Shown one piece after another: positions 7,096-17,361 of a stretch of 64,000 nt of DNA. The translations under genes and the position numbers were made by a program. Under the pieces are notes generated by a model. That model did not search any database. It worked only from the letters and a program-made list of their open reading frames with translations, and was not told the origin of the DNA. How positions within the stretch are numbered: position 1 is the first letter of the stretch; each line of letters begins with the position of its first letter. This DNA comes from Halobacteriovorax marinus (GTDB taxonomy: Bacteria; Bdellovibrionota; Bacteriovoracia; Bacteriovoracales; Bacteriovoracaceae). The DNA is taken from assembly GCA_002163155.1 (NCBI GenBank), contig MAAO01000006.1, positions 682,001 through 746,000 of the forward strand. The letters are read 5' to 3'.

Positions 7096-8022
7096 ATGTA
7101 CAATATTCAATTAGCTTCCTCATTAAGCGGTATCAACGTTCACAACCTACGGGCCTGGGAAAGAAGATACAGTGCTGTAACTCCAGATAGAGATTCTGTC
7201 GGAAGAAGACTTTACTCAAAAGATCATATTCAAAAACTTTTCTTACTTAATCAACTTGTTAAGGAAGGAACGGCCATAAGGCATATTGCTGAAAAAAGCC
7301 GTACTGAACTTCTTTCTCTAGTTGAAGAGAAAGGACTTGAAAGTGATTTAAATTTTGATCAAAAGCCTAATGAAGAAGAAGAAATTCACTTAAGTTTCAA
7401 CGCCATGACTATGGCCTTAAACTTTAAAAAATTTGATATCGTGACTCACGAATTAAATAAGGCCATTTCAAAATACGATTTAAGAAGAGTTGTTTTTGAA
7501 TTACTTATTCCATTCTTAGGAGTTATGAGAAAGAAACTTAATACAAAAGAGTTAACTCTTTCAGAGAAGCAATCACTGATTACTTTAATTAAGTTCTATC
7601 TAAGAAGAAGTATTTATCAAGGTAATACTGGTATTTCTTCACAGAGTGTCATTATTGCAGCTCCTGCAGGCGACAGCTATGAACTACAAGTTCTGATCGC
7701 TTCTCTACTTATGAGTCACTACGGAAAAGAAGTGATTTACTTAGGGGCGAATGTAGAAGCTCGCTCAATTCTTGATACATCTGAGGCCACTGGAGCAAAG
7801 AATATTCTTATTTGGGCATCTTGTCTTTGGAGTGAGAAGAAATCTGTAGAGCTTTCAGAATATTTTAAAGAACTTTGTGAGAATTCAAAAGAGGGGACGA
7901 ACTTAGCATTTGCCTGCAATGGTGGTGCATCTTACGAGTTCTCGCTAAAGGATCACTCTGTAAATCTCATCAAAGACTTTAAAGATTTTGATACTTCACT
8001 AAAAGATCAAGACCTCTTCTAA
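7096..8022 (+). CDS. MerR-family regulator with cobalamin-binding-like domain (CarH/CarA-like)
   Basis: 308 residues. Residues 1-70 form a MerR winged helix (NLRAWERRYSAVTPDRD, then GRRLYSKDHIQ). Residues 100-180 match the four-helix cap, and residues 183-290 the Rossmann-like B12-binding domain (VIIAAPAGDSYELQVLIASLLM). In light-sensing CarH the motif D/E-x-H-x-x-G supplies the lower cobalamin ligand; here the His position is Tyr195 and the Gly is Gln198. A W-x9-E-H motif is not evident. The protein therefore looks like a B12-independent member of the family. A strong AAGGAG site lies just before the ATG. No target gene is visible next to it; the gene downstream is convergent. Confidence 0.82.
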   Translation: MYNIQLASSLSGINVHNLRAWERRYSAVTPDRDSVGRRLYSKDHIQKLFLLNQLVKEGTAIRHIAEKSRTELLSLVEEKGLESDLNFDQKPNEEEEIHLSFNAMTMALNFKKFDIVTHELNKAISKYDLRRVVFELLIPFLGVMRKKLNTKELTLSEKQSLITLIKFYLRRSIYQGNTGISSQSVIIAAPAGDSYELQVLIASLLMSHYGKEVIYLGANVEARSILDTSEATGAKNILIWASCLWSEKKSVELSEYFKELCENSKEGTNLAFACNGGASYEFSLKDHSVNLIKDFKDFDTSLKDQDLF

Positions 8023-8028
8023 AGTTAC

Positions 8029-8946
8029 TTATGGGCATAGTTGATTAAGATCTATGTCCATTTTATTTTTCTCAATATATTTCTTTAAATGAAAACGAAA
8101 TGAATTCCAAGAAATTTGATTTTCTAGTTTCAAATGGCATCCTGAAGAGGCCAGTTTAGCCAACTCTTCGCTTGAGAGCGTCAGAGAAGATAACTTTTGA
8201 AAGAACGCCACAATAGAGTAGGGGTCTGAATCTTTAAACTGCGTAGCAAGTGCTTCAATAACATGACTTCTCTGGTAAGAGTTAGAACTTCTTATGAGAG
8301 TAGAGAAAAAGATTTGTTTATTTGCTCCCTCTAGGTCTTGCGCAATATCTAAGTAATTTTCTAGTTCACTTTCTGTTGGATTAGCTTTTAAAAGTAAAGA
8401 GGCGGTACTTTCTAAAATCTTAGTATTTTCTAGCTTTAATAGATCTTGAAAGGGAATATCATCAAGCTGTAGATCTTTATATTCTAAATTTAAATCTAGT
8501 AGTGCAAGAGTCCTCGCTAAGAGTGAGTGGGCAGGAGTGCCATTTTCATCAAAGTAACCTGCTGAGTCTGGTTTGGTTCCACAGAAATTATCAATAATGC
8601 ACATGGAAAGTTTGTTTGAGAGTTTCAAGCTATAAGTCTTGAGCAATTCCTTGGAAAGAATGAACTTAAGATCTTTCACATCAATTCTATAGTCATTTAA
8701 TTTTCTAAAGGCCTGGTCTTTAGAGATGGTGATTTCCAGGTTTTTGGCCAAGGTTATGAGATTAGCTTGTAGCACCTCTTCGCCGAGAGGTTTGACCTGT
8801 TGCTTATTCTTTACAACTCTTAGAGTTTCTATATCTTCTGGGAGCATTACGGAATTTTTTGGTTCTTTGTCTTTTAGGAAAATCGACCAGATAGCTAAGA
8901 GGACAATGAGAGAGGATACGAGAATTTTAAGAGAAGTTTTTTTCAT
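8029..8946 (-). CDS. secreted/anchored alpha-helical protein with C-x5-C-G motif (paralogue of 12070 gene)
   Basis: 305 residues with an N-terminal signal anchor (residues 7-24) and an otherwise helical, HEAT-like composition with Leu-rich repeats. I do not recognise a family. The notable motif is C116-x5-C122-G followed by a conserved Ser/Tyr segment. The same C-x5-C-G pattern at about the same distance from a helical domain occurs in the 12070-12783 protein. Each of the two follows a GH23-like lysozyme-fold gene in its operon. It lies 60 bases downstream of the 9007 gene with a hairpin in the gap. A protein matched to a secreted lysozyme, such as an immunity or folding partner, is conceivable but is inference. 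Confidence 0.6.
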   Translation of the reverse strand: MKKTSLKILVSSLIVLLAIWSIFLKDKEPKNSVMLPEDIETLRVVKNKQQVKPLGEEVLQANLITLAKNLEITISKDQAFRKLNDYRIDVKDLKFILSKELLKTYSLKLSNKLSMCIIDNFCGTKPDSAGYFDENGTPAHSLLARTLALLDLNLEYKDLQLDDIPFQDLLKLENTKILESTASLLLKANPTESELENYLDIAQDLEGANKQIFFSTLIRSSNSYQRSHVIEALATQFKDSDPYSIVAFFQKLSSLTLSSEELAKLASSGCHLKLENQISWNSFRFHLKKYIEKNKMDIDLNQLCP

Positions 8947-8968
8947 AGATCTATTATAAATAAAATTA

Positions 8969-9000
8969 GCGCCCAGACAACTCGAAGTTTGAAAGGGCGC
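8969..9000 (-). terminator. intergenic GC-rich hairpin between lysozyme-like gene and its downstream gene
   Basis: Stem GCGCCC (8969-8974) pairs with GGGCGC (8995-9000); AACT/AGTT inside can extend it. On the minus strand it is followed by a T-rich run (TAATTTTATTTATAA) before the ATG at 8946. It could be an attenuator that lowers expression of the downstream gene, or a partial terminator. Confidence 0.5.
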
Positions 9001-9006
9001 CCATAT

Positions 9007-10119
9007 TTATTTTAAAACTTTTTCTATTTCAGTTCTTACATTCTTATTTTTCTCATAGTTACTAAGGATTTGGTTATAAGCAGACTTAACCTCATCATTT
9101 AACTTAAAAGATACTTGCTTAAAGATTCCAATTTTTTCTTGATCTTGAAAATCGTGGATTCTGTCTAAATTCTTTTTAAAGCCTTTATCGTGATTTGCGT
9201 AAGAGCCTCTTGTGTCTGCAAAGCGACAAGTTTCAGCTATAGAGCCTGAATTATACTTTCCGGCCCAAGTTCCTCTGATGAGTTTAGCGTAATCAAGTTT
9301 CTTAGTTGTTGGATGCTTTAAGCATTTCATCCAAGAACTCCATCTCTTCTTCTTAACACTTCCTCTGAACCACATTTTCTTCTTCGAACGACTGTTCCAG
9401 TTATATAGAACTGGCTTATAACCTTGCATTAAAAAGTTCACACCATAACGAACAGTTTTACGAAATGATTTATACTGCTCTTTAGCGAGGAAAGTTTCAT
9501 AGTGCCAACGAATACTTAATTGCATTGCTCCGATATCAGACCCATCACCACCACGGATAATTTGTCTAATGACTTGGTCATCAGCAACTTTGTCACAGTC
9601 TGGAAAGAAAGGACTGTCTCCATTCTTAAAGTATTTCGTAAAATTCTTATAAGTAGTAGACTTTAACTTCTTTGCTGCAAGTACTGAAGGCGTATATTTG
9701 GCATCCAGCTTCTCTTTAGTATAGGCATAGAGAATATCCCCACTACTGGCGTGTTGATTACAAAGACCTTTCGAATCATTTGTCTCTCTAAAGTGAAGGT
9801 ATAGTCCTTCGTGAAGAGGAACTGTCAGAGCGAGAGTTAAAAAAGCATAGTAGGCCTTTTCATTCCCTTCATCTAAGAGAAACTTTGCTCTCTTATGCGC
9901 CTCTTGAATAATAGTTTTTACAAATTCTGAACCGTAGGCGAGTTTGGCCGCATCAGTATTCTTAAAAATAGGACCATCAAGAACTGCCCCGGGGTCTATT
10001 GTCGTCATCATTTTATCGAGTACTTTAACTCTCGCAATTTCACTTTGCTCTGTGGCCGCAAAGCCCGCCAGTGAATTAAGGATGACCAAAGTACTGATCG
10101 TTTTCTTTAAAAGACTCAT
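9007..10119 (-). CDS. secreted lysozyme-fold (GH23-like) protein
   Basis: 370 residues with a signal peptide ending near FAATEQ (about residue 22). HEG at 103-105 gives a candidate catalytic Glu104, followed by GSDIGAMQLSIRW (194-205), the G-x-M/L-Q segment typical of soluble lytic transglycosylases. The C-terminal part contains an N-x-G...C-R...N-H-D-K-G-F block that is also found, as N-G-G...C-R-W...N-D-K-G-W, in the divergent 10278 protein. The two are therefore distant paralogues. The likely action is cleavage of peptidoglycan glycan strands in the periplasm or in prey. The long basic region W-F-R-G-S-V-K-K-K-R-W at about residue 250 is unlike housekeeping Slt proteins. Confidence 0.65.
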   Translation of the reverse strand: MSLLKKTISTLVILNSLAGFAATEQSEIARVKVLDKMMTTIDPGAVLDGPIFKNTDAAKLAYGSEFVKTIIQEAHKRAKFLLDEGNEKAYYAFLTLALTVPLHEGLYLHFRETNDSKGLCNQHASSGDILYAYTKEKLDAKYTPSVLAAKKLKSTTYKNFTKYFKNGDSPFFPDCDKVADDQVIRQIIRGGDGSDIGAMQLSIRWHYETFLAKEQYKSFRKTVRYGVNFLMQGYKPVLYNWNSRSKKKMWFRGSVKKKRWSSWMKCLKHPTTKKLDYAKLIRGTWAGKYNSGSIAETCRFADTRGSYANHDKGFKKNLDRIHDFQDQEKIGIFKQVSFKLNDEVKSAYNQILSNYEKNKNVRTEIEKVLK

Positions 10120-10277
10120 TTTATCTCCTAATATTATTCTAAATATCTGAAATTTAAGAATTTATAACGTGTTGCGCAAGTAAATCCTAGGGAAATGTTT
10201 GCGCACTGTATTATTTTCACAAATCCCTTATAATTAAGACCTATAATTAAGTACTTAGCGTTCTAGGAAGGAACTCA

Positions 10278-12062
10278 ATGAAAAGAATTATGACTTTAAT
10301 ACTCTTGTTTTTAATCACACTGGCCCCAAACGTTACTGCGGCTCCTGACGATACTCCCGATTGGTGGAATTGTAACAACCGCACAAGTGGTGAGTGGAAG
10401 TTCGGTCGTGCTCCTGATGTGTGTGACATGGATAGTTTCATCGATTTAAATTATGTGAATAATGAATTTAGTGATTTCGTTTTCTATGACTCTGAAGATA
10501 GAGACAGTGAAAGAGAAAGGTATATGACTGAGGTTCACGCTCTTATAAATGAAGTGGCGAACTACTACTATAAAAAGAGAAGAAGTGAAGTCTCCGAGGC
10601 CGAGCTACAAGTCTTTCTAAGATCGGCCCTATCAATTGGTCATCAAGAGAGTTTTTGGAGTCATTATAGAACTCCAACTCACGGAAAAGTTCAGTTCATG
10701 CGAAGTGGTGGAGACTATGGTCACGGACATGGAATGTTTCAGGTGGATGATCGTTGGCATTTTCCTGCGATTAAAGATGGAACAGCGGCCAATATTGTCA
10801 TGAACATGATTTACTCCCTTGAGGAGTATTTCGATGCCTGGGAACGAGCTCCAGCTGCAGGATGCGCGGCTGAGGACGATTACGAAGCTCGCGGAAGATC
10901 AGCCTATAGTGCTTTTAACGGGGGACCAAGTCGTATTTGTCGTTGGACGAATCCAAACGACAGGTGGGCCCGAAATGATAAGGGCTGGTGGAGTAAGTAT
11001 CAAAATAGAGGATGGGAAAACTACATCCAAGATTTTGATAAAGTTTCCTCTGTTGATGTGGATTGTATCGTTCAAGGAAATGAAGGTTGTCTGAGAGATT
11101 CTGATGATGACGATGAACCACAAGTGGGAAGAATTTATAAGAGCGAAGCGGGAAAGTTCTGTTCATTTACAAATGGAGAGTTTGAGTGTGTTTCTCTCTT
11201 ACAAGACGCGAGTTGTTTAGCACTAAAGGGTGGAGATGACTTTGCAAATTATAGAGGAAGATTTAGAAGAATGCCCAAGGACTTTGAGGACGAGTACAAT
11301 TTTTCTGAAATTGATCGCCATGAAGTTTGTCACAATTTTTCAAATGATTTAACTAGAGTCTCAAAATCCATAAAGGTTCTAAAAAATATTAATCTTAGAA
11401 AGTCTCCCGCAGGAGCTTGGCTTGTGACAATTCCTGCTAACAGAGTTGTTCAGGTTTTAGACTTTAATTTAAAAAGCTCTTTTAAAGAAGAGCGCTACTA
11501 TAAAGTGAAATATAAGAATCACATTGGTTTTATCTACGCTGGAAATAAGGAAGACTCTAAGAGTTGGTCCCTTGAAGTTTCCGAGAAAGCAGAAGACCGA
11601 ACTATAGCCGCTAACTCTGATAAAGTTAGAGTTGTAGAAGAGAGTGGAGTTTCAGTTTATAGTGCTGATGGAACTCTCTTAAGAGAGTTAGTATTGGACG
11701 AAGTTATTGAAGTGATGGACTCTTCAGTATTAGGTTCTTTAAATGAAATTCGCTACGCCATAGGAAATGATGAATTTGTAAAAGCTGGTTTCTCTGGAGA
11801 CTTATACAATCTAGAAGAAGTGTTCAGTGTAATTAAGAAAACAAGAACACCAGTCTATAGAGTCGCAAGTCTTAGGAAGAAGACTTGGTGGAAGAAATTA
11901 AGATTATGTCCCTCTAAGAAGTGTAAGAAGAGCGGATCATTAAAGGGTCCTAGACTTTCTAAGAAAACTTTTCATGTGACAAGTCATCAAGGTGATTGGC
12001 TACTTATTGAACAAGGAAGTAAGAAGGGTTGGTTAAGAAGTAAGTACGTAGTCTACCAATAG
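10278..12062 (+). CDS. secreted lysozyme-fold (GH23-like) protein with C-terminal SH3-like domains
   Basis: 594 residues with a signal peptide cleaved near TAAPDD (residue 22). The lysozyme-like domain spans about 85-270: GHQESFW (Glu124 candidate acid), GHGMFQVDDRWHF (150-162) and AYSAFNGGPSRICRW. An acidic linker DSDDDDEP follows. Two bacterial SH3-like regions come next, one near 370-430 (NLRKSPAGAWLVTIPANRVVQVLDF) and one near 525-594, ending GWLRSKYVVYQ; such domains commonly bind cell wall. The start has a good GGAAGGA site. It lies divergent from a paralogous gene, with 158 bases of shared upstream region, and 7 bases before a C-x5-C-G protein. The probable role is muralytic. Confidence 0.72.
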   Translation: MKRIMTLILLFLITLAPNVTAAPDDTPDWWNCNNRTSGEWKFGRAPDVCDMDSFIDLNYVNNEFSDFVFYDSEDRDSERERYMTEVHALINEVANYYYKKRRSEVSEAELQVFLRSALSIGHQESFWSHYRTPTHGKVQFMRSGGDYGHGHGMFQVDDRWHFPAIKDGTAANIVMNMIYSLEEYFDAWERAPAAGCAAEDDYEARGRSAYSAFNGGPSRICRWTNPNDRWARNDKGWWSKYQNRGWENYIQDFDKVSSVDVDCIVQGNEGCLRDSDDDDEPQVGRIYKSEAGKFCSFTNGEFECVSLLQDASCLALKGGDDFANYRGRFRRMPKDFEDEYNFSEIDRHEVCHNFSNDLTRVSKSIKVLKNINLRKSPAGAWLVTIPANRVVQVLDFNLKSSFKEERYYKVKYKNHIGFIYAGNKEDSKSWSLEVSEKAEDRTIAANSDKVRVVEESGVSVYSADGTLLRELVLDEVIEVMDSSVLGSLNEIRYAIGNDEFVKAGFSGDLYNLEEVFSVIKKTRTPVYRVASLRKKTWWKKLRLCPSKKCKKSGSLKGPRLSKKTFHVTSHQGDWLLIEQGSKKGWLRSKYVVYQ

Positions 12063-12069
12063 GACTTAG

Positions 12070-12783
12070 ATGAAGAAGCTATTTGTTTTTACTATTGTTG
12101 GATTGACCGCCCTCTTTTTGAGTTCTCAATTCTTTGAATCAAGTTCTAAGAGCGAGGACTTATCTGTGAGCTCAATTACTAGTGACAAGACTCAAACGAA
12201 AACTCTTCGCTCTGTGGCCTCAGTTGAGCTTGGTCAAAAATTAAAACAATTAGATGATTTAGAGAACTGCTTAGATAGTAGAAAATGTGGTTTTTCTAAT
12301 TCTGACTCTAGAGAGTATGACCTTGAAGTTGGAAGGGCGATTAAAGTTGAACTAGAAAAACTCTACGAATATATTAGTGATGAAGAAATTGAAGATGAAT
12401 GGGTGAGTGAATTAGGCAGAAGATACATCCAGTTCGAAGACGGACATATAAAGGAAGCGGCCTTAATGCTCCTGAGCACTCAAGCACCTAGCGATAAAAA
12501 TCTGGAAGTGGTTCTATCTGAAGTGATTTCCTTTCATTCAGCACCTTTAGTTGAGCTTGGACTCTTAGAGCTCACAAAGTATAAAACGCCAGTTTGGAAC
12601 AGACGAATAGATGAGAGTTTTATGAAGAATTTAAATTCAGGTAGTCTGGTGGTGAGACAACTTCTTGCTAAGAAGATTTCTCAATTTCTCACGAATGATA
12701 ATAGAGCTATGTATAAGGAATTTGCTGCGACAACCAATGACAGTAAAGTCAAAAGATATATTGAAGCAGCATTATCTAAGTAA
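12070..12783 (+). CDS. secreted helical protein with C-x5-C-G motif (paralogue of 8029 gene)
   Basis: 237 residues with a signal anchor (residues 3-19, VFTIVGLTALFLSSQFF). The motif C67-x5-C73-G is followed by an acidic helical domain rich in Leu/Glu, compatible with HEAT-like repeats (LGRRYIQFEDGHIKEAALMLLS; LVVRQLLAKKISQFL). The start is 7 bases after the lysozyme-like gene stop, so the two are co-transcribed. No known family is recognised. Its similarity to the 8029 protein in motif, signal anchor and operon position is the main clue. Function is unknown; a partner of the adjacent muralytic enzyme is inferred. Confidence 0.6.
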   Translation: MKKLFVFTIVGLTALFLSSQFFESSSKSEDLSVSSITSDKTQTKTLRSVASVELGQKLKQLDDLENCLDSRKCGFSNSDSREYDLEVGRAIKVELEKLYEYISDEEIEDEWVSELGRRYIQFEDGHIKEAALMLLSTQAPSDKNLEVVLSEVISFHSAPLVELGLLELTKYKTPVWNRRIDESFMKNLNSGSLVVRQLLAKKISQFLTNDNRAMYKEFAATTNDSKVKRYIEAALSK

Positions 12784-12796
12784 AATACCTTTTAAA

Positions 12797-13687
12797 TTAA
12801 AATATTGATTGGCAGCTCTTATCTTTGTAAGAGTATTCTTTGACTTCACTTAGAGGAACAATTTCAATTCCTTTTCTCTTAGCTGCTTTAATAAAAATTT
12901 CAGTCGCTTCAATACTTCTTTCGTGAATATCGTGAAGTAGAGCTACTCCTCCACCAAAAGGATATTTGATTTTATACTTCTTCATTTTATATTTAGTGTT
13001 ACCAAAAATCGTTCTCTTTACTACGTGTCTATAGGCAGTACCACCTACGACGTGGGCCATAATATTACTAGCGATCTGCTCTTTAGTAATGGTTGGAACC
13101 CAATCAGAAGTATCAATGTCCCAAAAAGCAAAGTTAATACAGTTCTCACCATAAATGATGTCACTGACTTTCTTCATTACATTGAAGTGGTGGTAGAGTT
13201 TATTCTTTCCGTAAGCTCCGTAAGGAAAACGGTAATAACTTGAAATTTGATTTGAACCAAACTTTTCTTTTAGGCCTTCTAAGATAGATATCGACTTTAA
13301 AAGTTCACCTTGAAACTCGTCTTCAGTTTCATTGTTATTATTTTCATGATCGTGATCATGACTCGCAAGAATGTGACCTTCGTCTAAAATTCTTTGAATA
13401 ATTGGAAGTGTGCTTTCATTAATCTTTCTTGTAAGAACAAAGAAAGTGGCCTTAACATTTTCTTTTTTTAAAATATCTAAGAGTTTAGGAGTTCTCGTAA
13501 TATGAGGACCATCATCAAAAGTGAGAGCAACTTTATTCGACTTTTTAAGAGAAGCTGATCTATATTGATCAAAACCAACATCGACTCTAGGTCTATAAAG
13601 TAGTGAGTCTACTGGAAATTGCTTCATTTCAGCTGATATACTTAGTGAAGTAAAAAGTGCTAATGCACTCATCGCAATAATTTTCAT
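12797..13687 (-). CDS. secreted polysaccharide deacetylase (NodB homology domain)
   Basis: 296 residues with a signal peptide (1-19, cleaved near ISAEM). All carbohydrate-esterase-4 motifs are present in order: TFDDGP (56-61, Asp58 base and Asp59 metal), SHDHDH (His110 and His114 metal ligands), RFPYGAYG, FWDIDTSDW, and LLHDIH (catalytic His). The expected reaction is removal of N-acetyl groups from peptidoglycan GlcNAc/MurNAc or chitin-like sugars outside the cytoplasm. It is convergent with, and 13 bases from, the lysozyme-like/C-x5-C-G operon. In Bdellovibrio, prey-wall deacetylation and a deacetylation-specific lysozyme work together, so the neighbourhood may be a predation locus; that last step is inference. 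Confidence 0.88.
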   Translation of the reverse strand: MKIIAMSALALFTSLSISAEMKQFPVDSLLYRPRVDVGFDQYRSASLKKSNKVALTFDDGPHITRTPKLLDILKKENVKATFFVLTRKINESTLPIIQRILDEGHILASHDHDHENNNNETEDEFQGELLKSISILEGLKEKFGSNQISSYYRFPYGAYGKNKLYHHFNVMKKVSDIIYGENCINFAFWDIDTSDWVPTITKEQIASNIMAHVVGGTAYRHVVKRTIFGNTKYKMKKYKIKYPFGGGVALLHDIHERSIEATEIFIKAAKRKGIEIVPLSEVKEYSYKDKSCQSIF

Positions 13688-14642: not shown

Positions 14643-16001
14643 ATGAGCCAAGCACTAATAATCTCAAATAACGAAGTTTTAAGCGATCTCTATATAGTGA
14701 ATCTCGAAGTTTACACGGGAACAAATGTAACTATTAAGAGAAGTTGTGATGAGGCCATCAAACTACTAGAGCTTAATCCTGATTTTGACGTGATCATCTC
14801 TCTTTGTATGTTAGATGACATAGACAGTGGTGCCATCATTTATCAATATCTCATTGAAAATGATCTTGAAAACCCTCTCATTGTTATTGGTAAGAAAAGT
14901 GATGTCCCAAAAGAGGTCCCTCAAGTGGCCGGCAGTTACGATGTAAAAAGTCTCGTGCGAAATGTTGCAAGTGTCTTGCAGATCTCGGCCAAGGATATGG
15001 TGGATAGATCTGTACCTGAATATTATCCTGTTCCGATTAAACTCTTTTATAATGTGAATTCTGTTCCCTGTGATATTTACTATCGCGTAAAGAAGTCCAT
15101 GACAGATAGTGAGTATTTAAAAATTTTTACTAAAAGTGATGCTCCTTCTCCAGGAATAAAGAAGTACATTGATGAAGGAGTGCACACTCTCTATGTTGAT
15201 TCTACTATGAGACTAGAGATGATTAATCTTGCTAGTCAATGTATCTTAAGTGAATTGAAGGGCCTAGAAGCTGAAGGCGTGTCTGATGAGAAGAAGATCG
15301 AAATCGTCGAGCAGGGAATAGAGATTGTTTCAGATCGATTATTCCATGAAAAAGAAGTCAACGCAGAGATTATAGAAATTTCTAAAACTTGCATGAAGTC
15401 CGTAAAAGATGTCGTGGAAAATGCTCCAAAATTAAAGAATATTTTGAAGCTACTTACGTCTAATAGAGCAAGCTACTTATATTCTCATTCTATAATTGCA
15501 ACTTTTGTGGCCACTCATATTGTAAAAACAATTTCCTGGGGAGGAGAGAGTCATATTGATAAGATTAACTTTGTGTTCTTCTTTCACGATATGTTCTTAG
15601 CGCCTATTTATGCTAAACATCCTGATTTAAGATATGAAGAAGAAGCTCTCTTTAGTAATCAATTAAATGATGCAGAAAAAGAGACGATTCTTGATCACGC
15701 AAAACTCGCTGCTGATGCTCTCGCTAAATATCCTAGACTACCTCTAGGGGCCGATCAGATTATCCTACAACATCATGGAATGACCAATGGTCAGGGTTTT
15801 GCTATGAATTTTAAGGATGATATATCACCACTCGCAAAAGTTATGATCATTGCTGAAGCATTCACTGAAGAGCTACTTAAAACTCTTGAAGACTCTTCTG
15901 AGGTGGTGACTAAGAAGGAAATGATCAAGTCCATGCATAATCGATTTCCAAGACATACCTATAAAAAGATTATTGAGACTTTGACAGAAATTAAACTCTA
16001 A
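14643..16001 (+). CDS. degenerate REC + HD-GYP-like protein (paralogue A)
   Basis: 452 residues. The N-terminal 110 residues resemble a receiver domain that has lost the acidic pocket (ALIISNNEVLSDLY). A middle module (PIKLFYNVNSVPCDIYYRV, about 130-200) is shared with two other proteins in this window. The HD domain keeps HD (His315/Asp316) and QHH (His377/His378). The GYP signature is changed to GMTNGQGF, where intact enzymes have the R/F-x-D-G-x-G-Y/F-P form, so the third metal site or the c-di-GMP pocket is probably altered. It may sense or bind c-di-GMP without efficient hydrolysis. It is convergent with paralogue B, overlapping by 11 bases. Confidence 0.75.
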   Translation: MSQALIISNNEVLSDLYIVNLEVYTGTNVTIKRSCDEAIKLLELNPDFDVIISLCMLDDIDSGAIIYQYLIENDLENPLIVIGKKSDVPKEVPQVAGSYDVKSLVRNVASVLQISAKDMVDRSVPEYYPVPIKLFYNVNSVPCDIYYRVKKSMTDSEYLKIFTKSDAPSPGIKKYIDEGVHTLYVDSTMRLEMINLASQCILSELKGLEAEGVSDEKKIEIVEQGIEIVSDRLFHEKEVNAEIIEISKTCMKSVKDVVENAPKLKNILKLLTSNRASYLYSHSIIATFVATHIVKTISWGGESHIDKINFVFFFHDMFLAPIYAKHPDLRYEEEALFSNQLNDAEKETILDHAKLAADALAKYPRLPLGADQIILQHHGMTNGQGFAMNFKDDISPLAKVMIIAEAFTEELLKTLEDSSEVVTKKEMIKSMHNRFPRHTYKKIIETLTEIKL

Positions 16002-17361
16002 TAGATTTTTCTAATGCCTGAAGTGTTTCTTTAAAATTTCCTACATTATATTCAAATCTAAGTTGATCAAGAATTCTTATCTTATCTTCAGGCGTTCTCT
16101 TACTAATAGCAAAACGACAAACAAAAGTACTCGCTAGAATAAAAGCACATGAGTGAGCTGATAGTTTATTGACTGTCACTCCAAAGGGAAATCCTGTTCC
16201 ATCCGGTCTTTCATGTTGTTGAGCAATGACAAAATCAACTTCAGAATATCCCTGAAAATGTCTTGCAATCTCTGCGGCCTTTATAGGGTGGGTGAGAAAC
16301 TCATCTTGTTCATCTTTAGTAAACATTTGTAAATTTGGATCTTGTGGACCGTCCACTTTCATGAGGTCTTCATTTGAAAGGGTCGAATCTTGTAGTAGAG
16401 ACGCCAGTCCTAATTTCTTTCTAGAAAGATCTGATTTCCAGCCCAGATTATGTAGAATGGCCTCACAATAGTATGAAGTCATAATGGCCTGTTCTGCAAA
16501 ATCACCATTTTTAAACGGGATATCATCAAATAAATTTTTATAGTTACCCTGTTTTCTAAAAATGCGATCTGTCGTTTCTATAATTAAAGAACAGAGAGCT
16601 TGAATATCATCACTGACTCCAATCGCCCTAATATATTGCTGAATAATTAAAGCACCTCTAATTTGATTACCAAGGTATTTAACATTAGATTGATTTTTTT
16701 GAAGTAAGTTCTCTGTGACTTTCTTTATCCCTTCTTCCAACATGAGAATAAAATCATTCTTTCCAAGATAGAGGTTCTTAATATTCTTCTTAGCGTAAGT
16801 TTGAATTTTAGAGTGGGTATAAGGACGATTTCTCTTAATAATTTTAATAAACTTCGTTTGCGTCAGCTCTAGATAAACATCATAGGGAACAATTTTAAAC
16901 ATGTAGAAGTTTCTAATTCGCATGGGGAGAAGATCATCTCTGTCCATCTCTTCAATAGATTCTTCAAACTCTTCTTGCTTGGCCCAATCTAAGGATTGAC
17001 CAATGACATCTTTAAAATTTTCTGCATCGTAGGGATTATAAATAATCCCATTAATAGGATGATTATTATAGAGATCATCATCGACACGATCTTTGATGAA
17101 GGCCTTAGTTCCAATGAAAATTATAGGTCTCTCTCCAACGGTATCTAAAACTTCTTTACCAAGGAGTGAGGGATCATCATCTTTAATTGAAGCTTCAATC
17201 ATGACGATGGCAAATGGACCTTCATAAGAGAGATGCTCAAGGGCATCGTGTCCATTGAGAGCACAAATAAGTTCAACCTTGGGAAAGTTTCCCATAAATA
17301 GCTGACTCAACTTGGTCCATTCTTCTTTATTGTCACAAATGAATAATGCTTTCATGCCCAC
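15991..17361 (-). CDS. degenerate REC + HD-GYP-like protein (paralogue B)
   Basis: 456 residues with the same three-part layout as paralogue A: receiver-like domain (ALFICDNKEEWTKLSQLF), middle module (IRNFYMFKIVPYDVYLELTQ), and HD-GYP domain. The GYP end is good (HERPDGTGFPFG), but the metal-binding HD is Q324-D325, and the paired His of the downstream motif is Gln382-His383. It has thus lost different catalytic residues from paralogue A. Phosphodiesterase activity is unlikely; a c-di-GMP-binding or protein-interaction role fits better. The 3' ends of A and B overlap. Confidence 0.77.
   Translation of the reverse strand: MGMKALFICDNKEEWTKLSQLFMGNFPKVELICALNGHDALEHLSYEGPFAIVMIEASIKDDDPSLLGKEVLDTVGERPIIFIGTKAFIKDRVDDDLYNNHPINGIIYNPYDAENFKDVIGQSLDWAKQEEFEESIEEMDRDDLLPMRIRNFYMFKIVPYDVYLELTQTKFIKIIKRNRPYTHSKIQTYAKKNIKNLYLGKNDFILMLEEGIKKVTENLLQKNQSNVKYLGNQIRGALIIQQYIRAIGVSDDIQALCSLIIETTDRIFRKQGNYKNLFDDIPFKNGDFAEQAIMTSYYCEAILHNLGWKSDLSRKKLGLASLLQDSTLSNEDLMKVDGPQDPNLQMFTKDEQDEFLTHPIKAAEIARHFQGYSEVDFVIAQQHERPDGTGFPFGVTVNKLSAHSCAFILASTFVCRFAISKRTPEDKIRILDQLRFEYNVGNFKETLQALEKSIRV

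Follow-up and report, generated by a model that had tools for sequence, protein, structure and literature searches.

Lysozyme-like enzymes encoded together with putative membrane-anchored helical partners in Halobacteriovorax marinus and other bacteria

The window analysed in this work is a stretch of 64,000 nucleotides from the 4.5-Mb genome of Halobacteriovorax marinus (contig MAAO01000006.1, positions 682,001 to 746,000), and the five complete open reading frames (ORFs) located at positions 8029–13687 of it form two divergent two-gene pairs beside a gene coding for a CE4 polysaccharide deacetylase, just as had been proposed in an earlier reading made from the sequence only. Each pair, hereafter B or C, consists of a gene coding for a predicted secreted lysozyme-like enzyme and a gene coding for its partner, a smaller protein with a putative N-terminal signal-anchor and a helical domain. 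What is established here comprises the genes, their pairing and homology, the predicted folds and topology signals, the co-inheritance of enzyme and partner and the family-specific matching between them. Due to the recurrence of the same pairing in more than 120 loci of predatory and non-predatory bacteria, the probable role of the partner is to hold, restrain or fold an enzyme able to damage the wall of its own producer.

Linkage of the enzyme and partner genes

In the window, pair B is encoded on the minus strand, with the partner gene (8029–8946) downstream of the enzyme gene (9007–10119), and pair C on the plus strand, where the partner gene (12070–12783) begins 7 bp after the enzyme gene (10278–12062); the start codons of the two enzymes are separated by 158 bp. 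Linkage elsewhere was counted over distinct enzyme loci, namely 54 for enzyme B and 77 for enzyme C. Partner B is encoded directly downstream of 53 out of 54 enzymes B, and at the remaining locus (L127), where the partner profile missed it, the same place is occupied by a gene for a 308-aa anchored protein that contains C-x5-C. The partner C gene lies downstream of the enzyme at 67 out of 77 loci, upstream at one and divergently at one more, leaving eight enzymes without an adjoining partner: the first copies of two tandems (L205, L209), a fragment (L211), three remote forms from family f2 (L026, L028, L029) and two enzymes of the Psychrosphaera type (L183, L186). With these counts chance adjacency was rejected. 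The Psychrosphaera-type genomes do encode partners elsewhere, which means that more than hitch-hiking connects enzyme and partner. The unlinked partner loci from genomes of this type are L244:3496-4971 and L245:2593-3402, and one genome carries two partner C genes in tandem.

No enzyme B was found with a partner C, or the reverse, at any counted locus, genomes carrying both pairs included. The suggestion of the sequence-only reading that the small proteins could be partners of the enzymes is thus supported, and the partners are dedicated ones, as seen from co-location in more than 120 loci and the lack of any B/C swaps. At the genome level, 37 of the 369 Bdellovibrionota genomes possess enzyme C at E<1e-30, and 36 of these 37 also possess partner C (the tallies were made by reading two lists); in the only exception, G237, the enzyme gene lies at a contig end. 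The distances in the enzyme and partner trees are correlated (r=0.80 for 67 C pairs, with a null maximum of 0.22), the partner diverging faster than the enzyme (mean identity 0.24 vs 0.38).

The one-to-one arrangement has departures of two kinds. Two tandem enzymes C of about 690–700 aa and 920 aa are encoded with one partner C in Colwellia piezophila (L205:3128-9008) and Paraglaciecola algarum (L209:2819-8638). Orphan partners, with no enzyme at the locus, are represented by a partner C in one genome (G015) and a partner B in three (G030, G102, G071). One orphan partner B gene, coding for 369 aa, immediately follows an alpha/beta-hydrolase (Abhydrolase_2) gene at L138:3881-5804; neither enzyme B nor enzyme C was detected in that genome, and the partner may have been re-paired with another enzyme.

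Sequence relationships and predicted folds

Neither of the window enzymes showed a significant match in the Pfam and NCBIfam scans, the cut-off of the Pfam SLT family included, for which reason they could not have been read as lysozyme-like from the window proteins alone; the assignment comes from profiles of their relatives. Enzyme C (594 aa) contains a signal peptide, a goose-lysozyme/SLT-like domain at approximately residues 72–255 and SH3-like C-terminal domains. The profile of its putative catalytic domain (A9, 40 sequences) matches goose lysozyme 153l with an E value of 5e-4 and several other solved goose lysozymes with E values from 1e-3 to 2e-2, and 22 out of 40 relatives weakly match Pfam SLT. 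The candidate catalytic residue E124 (E53 of A9), located in the HQES motif (ES motif), is invariant in all 40 sequences, the alignment of which also reveals the conserved motif GD-x-GHGHGxMQ-V-D-D-R-x-H, including Q155, and a Y-N-G-G block. In the alignment to goose lysozyme 153l, the conserved D146 and D157 coincide with its GD and VD positions, which suggests that enzyme C acts as a hydrolytic muramidase and not as a lytic transglycosylase.

The AlphaFold2 model of enzyme C has a predicted local distance difference test (pLDDT) score of 88.8. In Foldseek searches with the full-length model, most matches (PDB and viral models) were to SH3-type tails from other wall enzymes, and the catalytic domain was not brought out because the SH3-like tail dominates the ranking; this result neither confirms nor refutes the predicted catalytic fold, for which the profiles provide the evidence. 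In a metagenome-assembled genome of family f2, a 607-aa ORF (L045:4187-6010) codes for radical-SAM and BATS domains preceding a C-type lysozyme domain, which is either a true fusion or the result of a missing stop codon. Genus g71 of family f6, which is probably Bdellovibrio-like, harbors remote, lipoprotein-looking relatives of enzyme C with no partner gene adjoining (L238:3748-4728, L239:3562-4506).

Enzyme B (370 aa) possesses a signal peptide and the invariant residues E104, D195, Q200, Y289 and N290, including the candidate catalytic Glu (E104), GxMQ (Q200) and YNxG motifs. No match to enzyme B was obtained by profile search against the PDB, and 3 out of 25 relatives weakly match Pfam SLT. 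Enzymes B and C are remotely homologous (hhalign 99.1%, E 1.4e-18, with E104 aligned to E124; 97.4%, E 1.5e-11 in a second profile comparison), and one relative (G036) matches both. The GH23-like nature ascribed to both proteins in the sequence-only reading therefore agrees with the goose lysozyme and SLT profiles for enzyme C and, for enzyme B, with its homology to C together with the few SLT matches. Several cysteines are invariant in both enzymes.

Both partners have a hydrophobic N-terminal segment without an obvious cleavage site, followed by a linker and a helical domain. For partner C (237 aa, signal-anchor at approximately residues 2–21), the AlphaFold2 model (mean pLDDT 90.5) is all-alpha with 11 helices, the top Foldseek matches are alphaRep/HEAT proteins (E 5e-3, probability 1.0) and HEAT_2 was matched by 5 out of 50 members; as modelled, partner C is a HEAT-like alpha-solenoid with stacked antiparallel helix pairs. 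Partner B (305 aa) is its remote homolog (hhalign 95.6%, E 1.2e-8), the C-x5-C segments being aligned in register. In partner B, two cysteine pairs (C116, C122, C270 and C304 in the window protein) are nearly the only conserved columns, each present in 32 out of 33 members, and the exceptions lose cysteines pairwise, the first two in L145 and the last two in L139, which suggests two disulfides. The C67-x5-C73 pair of partner C is nearly invariant over 50 sequences, L126 and L173 lacking both cysteines. Hence, the C-x5-C part of the C-x5-C-G motif described earlier is real and selected, but its trailing glycine is not invariant in partner C. No curated family was assigned to the partners by Pfam or NCBIfam; in the scans, which covered 14 sequences of partner B and 50 of partner C, no Lipase_chap or other curated chaperone, no ankyrin family and no PliG/MliC lysozyme inhibitor family was matched. 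A comparison with anti-phage defence families likewise gave no match.

Possible roles of the partners

The reading we tentatively favour, giving it slightly less than an even chance, is self-protection: a cognate partner anchored in the inner membrane would bind the muramidase in the periplasm and keep it inactive until export. The secreted enzyme, with its predicted signal peptide, GH23/goose-lysozyme-like domain and, in enzyme C, SH3-like wall-binding tail, would cut peptidoglycan outside the producer. The partner, composed of a signal-anchor, a flexible linker, a HEAT-like solenoid and a cysteine staple, would be located at the periplasmic face of the inner membrane, where it may physically bind the emerging enzyme and hold it off the producer's wall, or inactive on it, until release or export. 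The export step is presumed; a gene coding for the type II secretin GspD is present in the window's genome (E 5.6e-139). If left free in the periplasm, a muramidase would attack the wall of the cell that made it. Self-protection is preferred because of this danger, the strict family-specific pairing, the co-occurrence of enzyme and partner at the genome level, their correlated trees, the retention of the partner when unlinked, the orphan partners, the sharing of one partner by tandem enzymes and the precedent of Bd3459/Bd3460. Orphan partners in particular represent the asymmetry expected of immunity genes.

That precedent, found in Bdellovibrio bacteriovorus, is the closest one: Bd3460, a repeat-scaffold (ankyrin) self-protection protein encoded downstream of the DD-endopeptidase Bd3459, binds and inhibits Bd3459, with Bd0816 belonging to the same system (PMC4686830). 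In both cases a peptidoglycan-cutting enzyme is encoded directly upstream of an alpha-helical repeat protein, and periplasmic self-protection by binding, known for Bd3460, may by analogy be proposed for the partners. Unlike Bd3459/Bd3460, the present module involves a putative muramidase, a HEAT-like fold, a signal-anchor, a conserved cysteine staple and a wide range beyond Bdellovibrio-type predators. Of the roles first put forward for the small proteins, self-protection or targeting, self-protection is a reasonable first choice given the analogy with Bd3460, but the anatomy of the gene pair is equally that of a foldase.

Several other points weigh against self-protection as well. The partner gene follows the enzyme gene instead of preceding it, as is likewise the case for bd3460. 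Orphan partners are few, and one of them is that located beside the alpha/beta-hydrolase gene. A preference of the enzyme for deacetylated wall would make protection redundant, as an enzyme ignoring the acetylated wall of its producer needs no restraint, so such specificity and the need for an inhibitor partly compete. Correlated trees would also be expected from simple vertical inheritance. With somewhat more reserve still, we suggest that the pairs may constitute a widespread, undescribed class of cognate muramidase-inhibitor pairs in Bdellovibrionota and beta/gammaproteobacteria, in which anchored HEAT-solenoids restrain goose-lysozyme-like enzymes and the B/C specificity has been strict since an ancient duplication.

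The main rival, which we consider unlikely, is that the partner serves as a steric chaperone of the lipase-foldase type, anchored in the membrane and specific for its enzyme, and that it folds a multi-disulfide muramidase in the periplasm and hands it over to type II secretion. The LipA/LipH pair has the same anatomy, namely a gene pair, an N-terminal anchor, a linker and an all-helical periplasmic domain, and LipH is needed for LipA to mature ahead of its export by the type II system (PMC13381987); in Acinetobacter, further chaperones associated with the membrane are reported for type II substrates (PMC4713064). The GspD gene, the invariant cysteines of both enzymes and the near-absolute co-occurrence of enzyme and partner in genomes fit a folding requirement too. 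The pairs thus resemble LipA/LipH, Lif and the type II substrate chaperones in combining a secreted enzyme gene with a gene for an N-terminally anchored helical partner, but differ from LipA/LipH and Lif in that the client would be a muramidase, the partners match neither Lipase_chap nor any other curated chaperone family and orphan partners occur, which are hard to explain for a foldase. Lif has the architecture of an extended scaffold. The predicted compact HEAT-like solenoid is unlike it.

The known lysozyme inhibitors PliG, PliC/MliC and PliI act on host lysozymes and are beta-rich. The partners may be likened to them as periplasmic proteins blocking a lysozyme (PMC3458809), although, unlike these inhibitors, they are all-alpha according to the prediction and encoded together with their own enzyme.

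Deacetylase neighbourhood, distribution and significance

The deacetylase gene (12797–13687, minus strand) faces pair C and codes for a 296-aa protein with a signal peptide, which matches Polysacc_deac_1 (PF01522) with an E value of 2.3e-25 and 89.4 bits against a cut-off of 23.1; its nearest solved relatives are peptidoglycan N-acetylglucosamine (GlcNAc) deacetylases (E 3e-21), with 5jp6 at 4e-11. Pair B is present in all five genomes of the window's genus and pair C in two of them. The three genomes without pair C harbor the genes for CE4, enzyme B and partner B in this order and on the same strand, so in the window pair C sits between CE4 and enzyme B. Outside this arrangement, pairs B and C are convergent or unlinked, and the conserved unit is each enzyme-partner pair; the mirrored layout noticed earlier is therefore a feature of the window and not a general one. 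In all five members of the genus, pair B is adjoined by a gene coding for a MerR-type protein with a B12-binding-like C-terminal half weakly similar to CarH (7096–8022 in the window), which may be a regulator.

CE4 was found beside pair B in all five genomes of the window's genus, two of which have pair C interposed, in genus g10 (2/2) and, for genus g14, at 4 of the 9 loci that were informative; the gene order is either CE4-enzyme-partner or enzyme-partner-CE4. No CE4 gene adjoins the remaining B or C pairs among the loci examined, and a general coupling was rejected, as the link is confined to approximately three genera. A link between CE4 and pair B is plausible in these lineages, a general one is not, and the deacetylate-then-cut pathway envisaged in the sequence-only reading could at most represent one use of pair B in particular lineages. 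In such a pathway, to which we assign a low probability and which concerns the substrate and is hence compatible with any role of the partner, CE4 would mark the prey wall and enzyme B would cut the deacetylated wall in the manner of DslA (Bd0314), a lysozyme specific for deacetylated wall (PMC7511926). The recurrence of CE4 beside pair B in two gene orders speaks for it. Against it are the C and other B pairs without CE4 and a substrate preference that cannot be read from these sequences. DslA and its relatives share with the present enzymes the lysozyme superfamily, the origin from a bacterial predator and a possible link to CE4 deacetylation; unlike these enzymes, DslA is transcribed alone with no partner described (PMC7511926). 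No sequence similarity of enzymes B and C to DslA was detected, the DslA chain being absent among the profile matches to solved structures, and the predicted second catalytic acid differs, enzyme C carrying the goose-type Asp positions and not the Glu-Glu pair of DslA; both points likewise speak against the pathway. Goose-type lysozymes and SLT lytic transglycosylases (GH23) have in common with the enzymes the catalytic Glu, a candidate one in enzyme B, and the GxMQ and YN motifs, together with both goose Asp positions in enzyme C, but the window proteins differ from them in lacking a Pfam SLT match and in having long family-specific insertions and SH3-like tails.

Least probable is that the partner, as an activator or adaptor, tethers or targets the muramidase to the producer's own inner membrane for local wall remodelling, not protection: the membrane anchor, the SH3-like wall-binding domains and the presence of the module in bacteria unlike Bdellovibrio-type predators, where it may serve the own wall, would suit this role, but the patchy occurrence even within one genus (pair C in two out of five genomes) argues against a core role in wall growth, and orphan partners are left unexplained.

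B pairs, sought within Bdellovibrionota only, were found in families f1, f11, f16 and f21. C pairs are present in Bdellovibrionota families f1, f6, f11, f17, f19 and f24 and, according to the scan of named genomes, which used enzymes C only, in the beta/gammaproteobacteria Reinekea, Aliikangiella, Microbulbifer, Pleionea, Thalassotalea, Paraglaciecola, Bowmanella, Colwellia, Paucimonas, Roseateles/Pelomonas and Paucibacter, being common in Microbulbifer, Thalassotalea, Roseateles, Paucimonas and others. The Bdellovibrio-like genus mentioned above has only the remote lipoprotein relatives of enzyme C, without a partner. A predation-specific module was accordingly rejected, and the initial tie to Bdellovibrio-type predation is not upheld, as C pairs are widespread in bacteria that are not Bdellovibrio-like.

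Apart from the pairs, two convergent, slightly overlapping genes at 14643–17361 of the window code for proteins of 452 and 456 aa that are distantly related (about 20% identity in cross-matches) and are encoded side by side in all five members of the genus and in G013.

A wall enzyme with a cognate partner is a known kind of system, but the families, the fold and the breadth described here appear to be new: in line with the view that the pairing had not been reported before, no description of such an enzyme-partner pair was found in the papers searched, most subscription journals lying outside the search, so that this absence is no proof. The means by which bacteria spare their own wall while exporting enzymes that cut walls are understood for a small number of cases only. 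Among predatory bacteria, Bd3460 was described as the first protein of self-protection to be discovered (PMC4686830), and the present module would supply a second candidate, of another fold and much broader distribution, offering a clear catalytic residue and a clear partner for genetic tests. Should the partner prove to be a foldase, it would represent a new family of enzyme-specific membrane-anchored chaperones. Whether inhibitor or foldase, families without any Pfam or NCBIfam match would receive names and a testable function.

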